DNA from: Arthrobacter gandavensis
GTDB taxonomy: Bacteria > Actinomycetota > Actinomycetes > Actinomycetales > Micrococcaceae
DNA: 64,000 nt
Assembly (NCBI RefSeq): GCF_009192735.1
Contig: NZ_VTFU01000004.1
Location: forward strand, 434,001 to 498,000
Reading direction: 5' to 3'
How positions within the stretch are numbered: the stretch's first letter is position 1; each line of letters starts with the position of its first letter. The notes below the pieces were generated by a model. The model was not told the origin of the DNA, ran no database searches, and saw nothing but the letters and a program-made list of their open reading frames with translations. Shown here in pieces: positions 36,502 to 38,755 of the stretch. The position numbers and the translations under genes are program-made.

Positions 36502-37971
36502 ATGGGTGCCGAAGTGAACAGCAAAACGTACAGCCGCGAGCAGCGCACGCGTTACCGCCAGCGGCTGCTGGAAAACCTGGACCGCTTTGCCGGTTATCTT
36601 TCCACCGCCAAATTTGCCGACACCTGCAGCATCGGCCTCGAACTTGAGCTGAATCTGACGACCCAGGACTTCGCTCCCGCTCTGAGGAACGCCGCCGTCC
36701 TGGAGGAGATCGCGGATCCCGCCTTCCAGACCGAGATCGGTGCCTTCAACATCGAGATGAACCATCCCGCTCTTTCCATCAAGGGCTCCGGGCTCAGGGA
36801 CCTCGAAGACTCTCTCCGGCACCAGCTGAACCGTGCCGACACACGGGCAGCCGATGTTAAAACCGAGATCCTCATGGTCGGGATCCTGCCGACACTTCAG
36901 CCGGCGGTGCTGGAGGACAAGGAATGGCTCAGCGCGGGCAAGCGCTACGCCGCACTGAACACGTCCGTTTTGCAGGCACGCGGCGAAGACGTGCTGGTGG
37001 ACCTGCCGGGCGCTGAACCATTGTCCTTCTACGCCAAGAACATAGCTCCGGAGGCGGCGTGCACCTCGGTGCAGCTTCACCTTGAGGTTAGCCCGGAGGA
37101 CTTTGCGCCGGCATGGAACGCCGCCCAGATCATCGCCGCCCCACAGGTTGCCCTGGCGGCCAACTCCCCGGTTTTCCTGGAGCACATCCTTTGGCATGAG
37201 ACCCGCATCGAACTCTTCAAGCAGGCCATCGACACCCGCCCTCCCGAGATGAGGAATCAGGGTGTGCGGCCGCGGGTATGGTTCGGGGAACGGTGGATCA
37301 CCTCAATTTTTGACTTGTTCGAGGAGAATGTCCGCTACTTCCCTGCGCTTCTGCCCGAGTTGTCGCGCAGCAGCGGAGGATCCACGGGAGCCGGGGCTCC
37401 CCTGCTCCCGGAGCTGCGCCTGCACAACGGAACGGTCTACCGATGGAACCGCCCCATCTATGATCCCGGGGAGCACACCCCAAACCTGCGTCTGGAGAAC
37501 CGGATCCTTCCGGCGGGCCCCACCGTGCTTGACGTTGTTTCCAACGCAGCCTTCTTTTACGGACTTGTCCACCATCTGCGCACCGCCGACCGCCCCCTCT
37601 GGAGCCGCCTGGCCTTCAAGAGTGCGGCTGATAATTTCCTCGCCTGCGCCCGTTCAGGCTTGGAAGCGACCGTCTACTGGCCCGGCATTGGGGAGACTCC
37701 TGTGGCGGAACTGATTATCCGCCACCTGATTCCACAAGCCGCGGAGGGGCTCCGCGAGCTTGGCGTGGACGACCATCTCATTGGGCGGTACTTGGATGTG
37801 ATCCGGGAACGAGCCCGCACGGAGCAGAACGGCGCCTCCTGGCAAATTGCCTATCTGCGCCGGCTTGAGAGCCAGGGCATGGAACGCAGGCCCGCTCTCG
37901 CGGAAATGACGCGGCGGTACTGGGAAAACATGCACACGAACGCCCCCGTGCATGAGTGGCCGGTCGACTGA
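36502..37971 (+). CDS. Glutamate-cysteine ligase family protein
   Basis: A 489-residue protein of the GCS2/carboxylate-amine ligase superfamily. The IGLELELNL motif supplies metal- and substrate-binding glutamates, and EIGAFNIEMNHP carries the second set. A basic region (RVWFGERW) and RLENRILPAGPT lie in the C-terminal half. Possible reactions are gamma-glutamylcysteine formation or ligation of glutamate to another amine. Actinobacteria usually rely on mycothiol or ergothioneine, whose pathway starts with EgtA, a relative. It is monocistronic with a 130-nt upstream gap. Confidence 0.8.
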   Translation: MGAEVNSKTYSREQRTRYRQRLLENLDRFAGYLSTAKFADTCSIGLELELNLTTQDFAPALRNAAVLEEIADPAFQTEIGAFNIEMNHPALSIKGSGLRDLEDSLRHQLNRADTRAADVKTEILMVGILPTLQPAVLEDKEWLSAGKRYAALNTSVLQARGEDVLVDLPGAEPLSFYAKNIAPEAACTSVQLHLEVSPEDFAPAWNAAQIIAAPQVALAANSPVFLEHILWHETRIELFKQAIDTRPPEMRNQGVRPRVWFGERWITSIFDLFEENVRYFPALLPELSRSSGGSTGAGAPLLPELRLHNGTVYRWNRPIYDPGEHTPNLRLENRILPAGPTVLDVVSNAAFFYGLVHHLRTADRPLWSRLAFKSAADNFLACARSGLEATVYWPGIGETPVAELIIRHLIPQAAEGLRELGVDDHLIGRYLDVIRERARTEQNGASWQIAYLRRLESQGMERRPALAEMTRRYWENMHTNAPVHEWPVD

Positions 37972-38024: not shown

Positions 38025-38051
38025 CTGGCACTCGCATATGTCGAGTGCTAA
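38025..38051 (+). promoter_or_regulatory. CIRCE element (HrcA operator) upstream of hsp20
   Basis: CTGGCACTC-N9-GAGTGCTAA matches the CIRCE consensus TTAGCACTC-N9-GAGTGCTAA at 16 of 18 arm positions with the exact 9-bp spacer. HrcA repression of the hsp20 gene is therefore expected. Confidence 0.9.
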
Positions 38052-38063
38052 TCTAATTTCATT

Positions 38064-38084
38064 CTTGAGCCGATGTGACTCAAG
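38064..38084 (+). promoter_or_regulatory. HAIR element (HspR operator) upstream of hsp20
   Basis: CTTGAGC-N7-ACTCAAG matches the HspR-associated inverted repeat CTTGAGT-N7-ACTCAAG at 13 of 14 arm positions. It lies 12 bp downstream of the CIRCE element, so HspR and HrcA could both bind here. Confidence 0.9.
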
Positions 38085-38155
38085 TTATCGACCCTTCTGA
38101 AGTTCCGAATATCGATTCGCCTGCCGAGCAGGTGGGCGTTAGGAGTTGATGACAG

Positions 38156-38755
38156 ATGGCCATGAAGTTTGATCCATTCCGCGAGCTCGACCGTATGGCA
38201 GGAGCCCTGCTGGACCCGCGGCAGCGGCTGCGGTTGATGCCGATTGATCTGTACCGCGAGGGCGACCATTACATCCTGAATGCCGATTTGCCCGGCATCG
38301 ATCCCGGTTCAGTCGACGTGGATGTGGACGGCCAGTTGCTGACCATCCGTGCAGAACGCACGATCCAAGCCGGCGACACCGTTACCTGGCTGACCCGGGA
38401 ACGTGAGTCCGGTTCCTTCCTGCGCCAGCTGAACCTCGGCCAGGGAATCAATATTGAGGGCATCTCCGCGAAGTACGAGAACGGAGTCCTCAGCGTTCTG
38501 ATTCCCGTCAGCGAACGGGCGAAGCCGCGCAAGATCGAGGTGTCTTCCTCCTACAAGGATTCAAACACCATCAGCGGTGAGTCCAGTTCGGAATCGGTCA
38601 CCTCGTCGGCTAGTGGCTCAGGATCCTCCGGCTCAATGTCGGGTTCGGGCTCTGGCTCCGGGTCTGATTCCTGGTCCTCCGGCTCCGGGTCGTCAGGGTC
38701 GGGGTCCGGGTCTTCCGGAGCGGGCTCTTCGGGTGACCAGGGCTCCGGCATCTAG
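38156..38755 (+). CDS. Small heat-shock protein (Hsp20/alpha-crystallin) with long Ser/Gly tail
   Basis: An ATP-independent chaperone that binds unfolding proteins. The alpha-crystallin domain spans about residues 29-118: ADLPGIDPGSVDVDVDG, FLRQLNLGQGI and the A-x-x-x-NGVLSVLIP motif. The usual IxI-type tail is replaced by about 70 residues that are nearly all Ser and Gly with scattered Asp/Glu. At 199 residues it is longer than typical (~145). AGGAG lies 10 nt before the ATG at 38156; a second in-frame ATG is at 38162. CIRCE and HAIR operators precede it and a terminator follows. Confidence 0.93.
   Translation: MAMKFDPFRELDRMAGALLDPRQRLRLMPIDLYREGDHYILNADLPGIDPGSVDVDVDGQLLTIRAERTIQAGDTVTWLTRERESGSFLRQLNLGQGINIEGISAKYENGVLSVLIPVSERAKPRKIEVSSSYKDSNTISGESSSESVTSSASGSGSSGSMSGSGSGSGSDSWSSGSGSSGSGSGSSGAGSSGDQGSGI
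38580..38745 (+). repeat. Low-complexity Ser/Gly codon repeats in hsp20
   Basis: Repeating TCN/GGN/AGY codons encode SGSG-type units in the hsp20 3' end. Synonymous codons vary between units, so the repeat is kept at the protein level and is not a recent exact DNA expansion. Confidence 0.7.

Follow-up and report, generated by a model that had tools for sequence, protein, structure and literature searches.

Upstream of the small heat-shock gene hsp20 of the soil bacterium Arthrobacter gandavensis, two palindromes follow each other closely: a predicted operator for the repressor HrcA (CIRCE) and a predicted operator for the repressor HspR (HAIR). The arrangement is no oddity of a single gene, as the same pair of predicted sites is a recurrent architecture on hsp20 within one bacterial order. 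We read it, with a probability of roughly 0.7, as a dual-repressor heat-shock promoter at which full expression of hsp20 would require an overload of both chaperone systems. Obtained here are both sites, both repressor genes, a conserved promoter geometry and a conserved pair on hsp20.

A predicted CIRCE-HAIR tandem precedes hsp20

The window is the whole stretch of DNA that was analysed, 64,000 nucleotides (64 kb) long. In it, the predicted CIRCE operator occupies positions 38025..38051 of the plus strand (CTGGCACTC-N9-GAGTGCTAA) and is kept in relatives. It departs from the consensus TTAGCACTC-N9-GAGTGCTAA by 2 mismatches (16/18 positions), its 6-bp core arms being exact (GCACTC-N9-GAGTGC). 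With up to 3 mismatches allowed, it is the single match in the 64-kb window, and 100 shuffles gave 0. Genome-wide, the exact core is found at 4 places, and a tolerance of up to 2 mismatches yields 170 matches versus 95 for the reversed control.

The predicted HAIR operator (38064..38084, plus strand; CTTGAGC-N7-ACTCAAG) is likewise kept in relatives and differs from the consensus CTTGAGT-N7-ACTCAAG by 1 mismatch (13/14 positions). Loose matches to HAIR are at chance level: with up to 3 mismatches, the window contains 2 versus 1.46 expected, and the genome 53, fewer than the 146 of the reversed control. The case for HAIR in the window therefore rests on its conservation and on its uniqueness, as it is the only site with at most 1 mismatch in the whole 3.72-Mb genome (12 contigs).

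A gap of 12 bp (38052-38063) lies between the two sites, and 71 bp separate HAIR from the start of hsp20. The joint CIRCE-HAIR pattern occurs once in the Arthrobacter genome, at hsp20. A preliminary description of this DNA had placed near-perfect CIRCE and HAIR sites 12 bp apart on the 5' side of hsp20, and it is borne out in the match scores, in the gap and in the identity of the gene as HSP20.

The gene itself (38156..38755, plus strand) is an ORF for a small heat-shock protein of 199 aa, matching PF00011 with an E-value of 1.6e-19. Among the named matches listed for Hsp20, the best is that of Arthrobacter sp. APC 3897, with 96% over residues 1-142; the label Arthrobacter is carried by 22 of the 25 named Hsp20 loci listed, at least 25 such loci being in existence. 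The protein ends in a Ser/Gly-rich, low-complexity C-terminal tail of ~60 aa (38576-38752), and ORF lengths differ among relatives. The ORF upstream of hsp20 (36502-37971, 489 aa) has a weak, sub-cut-off match to GCS2 (glutamate-cysteine ligase), with an E-value of 0.0044.

Both repressor genes and their other operators are present in the genome

The preliminary description had proposed a genome scan for CIRCE, HAIR, hrcA and hspR; such a scan reveals both regulator genes and a tandem that is unique to hsp20. The genome has one copy of hrcA (TIGR00331, 302.7 bits versus a cut-off of 197.2), and hspR follows dnaK at a distance of 1.8 kb, in the same orientation (NF047375, 140.1 bits versus a cut-off of 105).

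Full scoring of operators in this genome covered seven stretches and 30 listed places, out of the 170 loose CIRCE and 53 loose HAIR matches. Within the seven stretches, CIRCE sites of at least 14/18 precede groES (2), groEL2 (2), hrcA, a Zn-ribbon gene and hsp20, and HAIR sites scoring 14/14 on a relaxed consensus precede dnaK (2), clpB (1) and hsp20. Three further places in these stretches, one of them within groEL2, have lower-scoring HAIR matches (12-13 of 14). The 30 other places (L002-L031) gave no CIRCE at 16/18 and no HAIR at 14/14, the best scores being 14 and 13; the two weaker HAIR places inspected among them lie inside long reading frames. The genome thus belongs with both known systems: hrcA is accompanied by CIRCE on groE and on hrcA itself, and hspR, near dnaK, by HAIR on dnaK and clpB.

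The CIRCE in front of the Zn-ribbon gene (L037:3542-3568; PF09723) brings to mind the mycobacterial HrcA target ruc. In the accessible parts of two sources, Rv0991c (ruc) of M. tuberculosis is a named HrcA target (PMC8223512, PMC13091356), and the Zn-ribbon gene appears to resemble it.

The tandem recurs on hsp20 within one order

Relatives were searched with a strict joint pattern, GCACTC-N9-GAGTGC-N0-30-TTGAG-N9-CTCAA, in family, order and class samples that overlap in some genomes. The family sample contains it in 43/295 genomes and 4/32 genera, including 20 of the 24 genomes of the window's own genus (code g1), with 28 of the 32 genera sampled being without it. The order sample contains it in 13/248 genomes and 9/85 genera, the class sample in 5/394 genomes, and by a count of rows it occurs in 0 of the 354 class-sample genomes outside the order.

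Wherever the strict tandem was found, it lies upstream of hsp20: this holds for all 57 rows of the family sample and for all new places of the class and order samples. The reversed control of the joint pattern gave 0 in 295, 394 and 248 genomes. A chance likeness of unrelated palindromes, for which the loose HAIR matches (up to 3 mismatches) speak by being no commoner than chance, is rejected on these zero controls and on the placement at hsp20 only; we regard it as next to impossible.

Four genomes of the own genus are without a strict match. In three of them, G146, G232 and G241, a relaxed score finds the two operators together on one hsp20 promoter or more, and in the fourth, G249 (L124), HAIR is kept and CIRCE decayed. 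The main hsp20 of G146 (L126) has kept CIRCE next to a weaker HAIR. Since L124 lacks CIRCE and L126 lacks a good HAIR, the pair is not indispensable; and since the operator that has not decayed stays where it was in these promoters, they fit each site working alone.

HrcA is above cut-off in 61/61 and HspR in 60/61 of the genomes examined. In G009, the exception for HspR, both operators are absent from the two hsp20 copies that were scored (L170, L176). As both regulators are nearly everywhere, operator turnover appears to occur in cis; loss or gain of a regulator as its source is not supported by their near-universal presence in the 61 genomes.

The layout of the operators varies

In a set of 119 distinct hsp20 upstream regions, whose biased drawing (many rows picked through the tandem pattern, others in genomes selected mainly because it was absent) means that its fractions are no population frequencies, CIRCE is over threshold in 79 regions and HAIR in 84 (78 and 83 if the artefact L145 is left out). 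The reversed-sequence null of the same 119 regions gave 0 for CIRCE and 0 for HAIR. By layout, 61 regions are CIRCE-HAIR (60 once L145, with its two weak and overlapping matches, is dropped), 4 HAIR-CIRCE, 4 triple, 15 HAIR-only and 10 CIRCE-only, and 25 have neither operator; L116 is scored as HAIR-only (CIRCE 14/18), yet fits the strict pattern. The search for hsp20 was made in 76 selected genomes of several hundred, 31 of the 76 yielding none at an E-value of 1e-20. On the hsp20 tree, which is poorly resolved, rough counts give at least 14 changes for CIRCE and at least 9 for HAIR, with 50/111 inner branches open and near-copies inflating the clustering.

The swapped order HAIR-CIRCE occurs in three genera of one family (code f9; L118-L120) and in one genus of another (f49; L116, L117). 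A triple HAIR-CIRCE-HAIR precedes hsp20 in the genus coded g6 (L069-L072); L139, from the same genus, has a decayed CIRCE. A CIRCE with an N8 spacer instead of N9 was recognised by eye in L108, L128, L129, L132 and L146 (two in the pattern-based count).

A ClgR-like repeat (TTCGC-N5-GCGAA, at least 9/10; consensus from the accessible part of PMC9004370) is present in 22/119 hsp20 upstream regions versus 1/119 in the reversed null. It is found in L062, L063, L064, L065, L067, L078, L080, L081, L083, L084, L088, L104, L116-L120, L138, L142, L145, L147 and L155, often just 5' of CIRCE or overlapping HAIR. In the window promoter, the best match of this kind is 8/10.

Close to hsp20, an HspR-like MerR gene was found in 13 of the 25 regions with neither operator, versus 0/94 of the others (L135, L151, L157, L158, L160-L163, L165, L169, L170, L173, L175). 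By their coordinates, 12 of these 13 genes are divergent from hsp20. These hsp20 genes seem to be wired in a second way, each through an HspR-like regulator of its own.

Probable position of CIRCE on the core promoter and of HAIR at the start

A TAnnnT motif directly follows the GAGTGC arm in 64/64 promoters (60 CIRCE-HAIR and 4 triple), or 62/62 in the pattern-based count, so CIRCE probably lies over the core promoter and HAIR over the start. The TA of this motif is also part of the CIRCE consensus; its last T is not. In the window, the putative -10 hexamer is TAATCT (38049..38054, plus strand), which overlaps the right end of CIRCE. The putative -35 region, CTGGCA (38025..38030, plus strand), lies within the left arm of CIRCE, with an 18-bp spacing to the -10, and is assigned by its position and by the alignment of relatives, where its counterparts are TTGGCA, TTAGCA, CTAGCA and CTGGCA. 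An N8 spacer in CIRCE, as in L108 and L129, would give a -35/-10 distance of 17 bp instead of 18.

Transcription would start at 38061..38062 (plus strand), ~7 nt after the putative -10, and HAIR would then extend from ~+2 to +24; in the alignment of relatives, HAIR begins 7-11 bp after the -10. A sigma-70 consensus scan reported no promoter here at its thresholds, hence the transcription start of hsp20 is one that we infer. The CIRCE palindrome was also flagged as terminator-like (1 found versus 0.7 expected).

The motif follows CIRCE in 0/5 swapped promoters and in 5/10 CIRCE-only promoters. The placement of CIRCE on the core promoter thus applies to the CIRCE-HAIR layout only, and a universal rule of CIRCE on the -35/-10 region is rejected on the swapped promoters. 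The distance between the centres of CIRCE and HAIR is 34-38 bp among relatives, which leaves a rigid helical phasing of the two operators unsupported.

As CIRCE overlaps the putative promoter, and as 15/119 distinct regions have HAIR only, it could be argued that HspR alone regulates hsp20 and that the CIRCE-like sequence is no HrcA site but is kept for its overlap with the putative -35 and -10. We consider this highly improbable. Five of the 15 HAIR-only regions were compared by eye, and 4 of them (L124, L133, L134 and L139; not L131) keep the -10 TAnnnT next to a decayed palindrome, which argues that the promoter can do without these arms of CIRCE and makes CIRCE unlikely to be a mere promoter remnant. 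Furthermore, a threshold CIRCE is present in 79/119 regions versus 0 in the reversed null, and 10 of these are without HAIR.

The leader is not predicted to act as the main heat switch

The 5' leader of hsp20 (38085..38145, plus strand) consists of TTATCGACCCTTC (38085-38097), a GC-rich hairpin (38118-38138) and the Shine-Dalgarno sequence AGGAG (38141-38145). In the predicted fold of the window leader, TTATCGACCCTTC pairs with the Shine-Dalgarno stretch, with the hairpin in between. As judged by eye, TTATCGACCCTTC recurs with at most 2 mismatches in 15/18 own-genus leaders, and in the aligned ones (13 of 18) the place of the hairpin is taken by a GC-rich stem whose sequence differs.

Such a pairing could make the leader an RNA thermometer that acts as the main heat switch, with a secondary role left to the operators; we judge this very improbable. 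We scored 64 leaders, those of the CIRCE-HAIR class (without L145) and of the triple class, against 60 shuffles each, at 30 °C only. The Shine-Dalgarno sequence is predicted to be no more hidden than in the shuffles, its accessibility lying within the lowest 5% of them in 0/64 leaders (median 0.51). From 30 to 50 °C, the predicted accessibility in the window leader goes from 0.11 to 0.16, which amounts to little melting. Its fold is not unusually stable either (z-score -1.15, with 26/200 shuffles equally or more stable), and an Rfam search of the leader gave no match at gathering score and one chance-level match with an E-value of 0.86. On the predicted exposure of the Shine-Dalgarno sequence, the RNA thermometer as main switch is rejected.

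A model of dual repression

HrcA and HspR most likely both repress hsp20, which would couple the gene to the titration of GroE and DnaK. In the accessible parts of the literature, GroE supports HrcA and DnaK is the co-repressor of HspR (PMC6032397, PMC8223512), the latter being stated for mycobacteria (PMC8223512). HrcA, kept active by GroE, would bind CIRCE over the putative -35 and -10 elements and shut out RNA polymerase; HspR, with DnaK as its co-repressor, would bind HAIR over the putative start and block initiation or escape. Unfolded protein would titrate both GroE and DnaK, so that both repressors would lose activity, and hsp20 would be fully expressed only under overload of both chaperone systems, in an AND-like manner. 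The gene would then link the HrcA regulon (groES-groEL1, groEL2, hrcA, Zn-ribbon gene) with the HspR regulon (dnaK, clpB). Binding and the AND-like logic, like the start site, are what we infer here; the chaperone feedback is carried over by analogy from other species.

We favour a steric double repression, with each repressor sufficient alone and thus an AND-type response to their inactivation. Each repressor is taken as sufficient alone because relatives with a single operator exist. The main alternative is a cooperative co-repression on the C. jejuni model: the two proteins would assist each other in binding, both would be needed, and the loss of either would induce hsp20 (OR-type). According to the accessible part of PMC7464140, C. 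jejuni HspR and HrcA are in direct contact, bind cooperatively on Pgro and are both needed at Pgro and Phrc; their sites are 27 bp (Pgro) and 11 bp (Phrc) apart, next to 12 bp here. Given that both repressors are needed in C. jejuni, whose dual promoters are the best studied, an analogous control would give OR-like induction of hsp20. In H. pylori, however, HspR and HrcA bind independently (same part of PMC7464140), and the spacing drift of 4 bp, together with the swapped order in other families, is unlike a rigid complex; the single-operator relatives also speak against cooperation, and we hold it to be doubtful.

The preliminary description made two further points, namely that both sites on one hsp20 promoter imply dual repression and that the tight spacing would let both repressors occupy it together, possibly with graded or AND-type control. 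The first is well supported by the promoter anatomy, by the conservation of the sites and by the presence of both repressor genes. As for the second, the 12-bp gap fits joint occupancy, and the drift of centre distances over 34-38 bp goes against a rigidly phased complex.

More tentatively, the recurrence could be described as a chaperone gate with two inputs, shared by several families within a single order of actinobacteria. In all of them hsp20 would be wired to the titration of GroE (through HrcA) and of DnaK (through HspR), and this wiring would have been kept while the layout was rewired (CIRCE-HAIR, HAIR-CIRCE, HAIR-CIRCE-HAIR, some with a ClgR-like third input), with hsp20 reserved for double overload.

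Comparison with known systems

Dual HspR-HrcA promoters are already known; in the accessible parts of the literature searched, the CIRCE-HAIR tandem on hsp20 is a new variant. HspR and HrcA of C. glutamicum have reportedly been the subject of an earlier paper. No description of the tandem on hsp20 was found in the accessible parts of the open-access literature searched, most subscription papers lying outside it, and those parts of PMC7448276, PMC2448437, PMC3489674 and PMC1180825 add nothing on dual operators.

The known dual promoters are Pgro and Phrc of C. jejuni and H. pylori, as described in the part of PMC7464140 at hand. They are alike in having both repressors at one chaperone promoter; their targets are groESL and hrcA-grpE-dnaK, whereas here it is hsp20. 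In C. jejuni, the HrcA site lies on the core promoter, as CIRCE does on the putative core promoter here (PMC7464140). HspR binds there upstream of the core promoter, whereas HAIR is found here downstream of the putative -10. A HAIR on the upstream side, as in C. jejuni, is seen only in the swapped promoters L116-L120 (f9, f49) and in the extra copy of the triple promoters L069-L072.

In the same part of PMC7464140, two heat-shock repressors also meet at one chaperone promoter on groESL of Streptococcus and Staphylococcus, as they would here; the partner of HrcA is CtsR and the target groESL, in place of HspR and hsp20. M. tuberculosis offers an actinobacterial small heat-shock gene under HspR: acr2, of the Hsp20 family, is controlled by HspR with PhoP, and is named alongside groEL2 in an interplay among PhoP, HrcA and HspR (PMC7464140). 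Unlike here, that part of the source describes no tandem CIRCE-HAIR on acr2 (PMC7464140).

The HspR regulon of Streptomyces, Mycobacterium and Deinococcus shares with the present genome the HAIR consensus and the targets dnaK and clpB. In Deinococcus, HspR also targets hsp20, and the accessible part of the source describes no CIRCE partner on this gene (PMC2687793). The HspR/HrcA/ClgR network of Bifidobacterium, also an actinobacterium, has the same regulators and operators, with HAIR on dnaK, clpB and clgR and CIRCE on groEL, groES and hrcA (PMC9004370). In contrast to the promoter described here, its hsp20 promoter is reported, in the accessible part of that source, to be devoid of a consensus motif (PMC9004370).

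Implications

The CIRCE-HAIR promoters constitute a natural family in which two chaperone-sensing repressors would meet on one gene, and their swapped, tripled and single-operator relatives are ready-made controls. The logic by which GroE and DnaK sensing are combined, be it AND, OR or graded, becomes directly testable. In these bacteria, hsp20 probably responds to the two major chaperone systems simultaneously. The promoter family also suggests that small heat-shock proteins may be held back for stress beyond the capacity of both systems.
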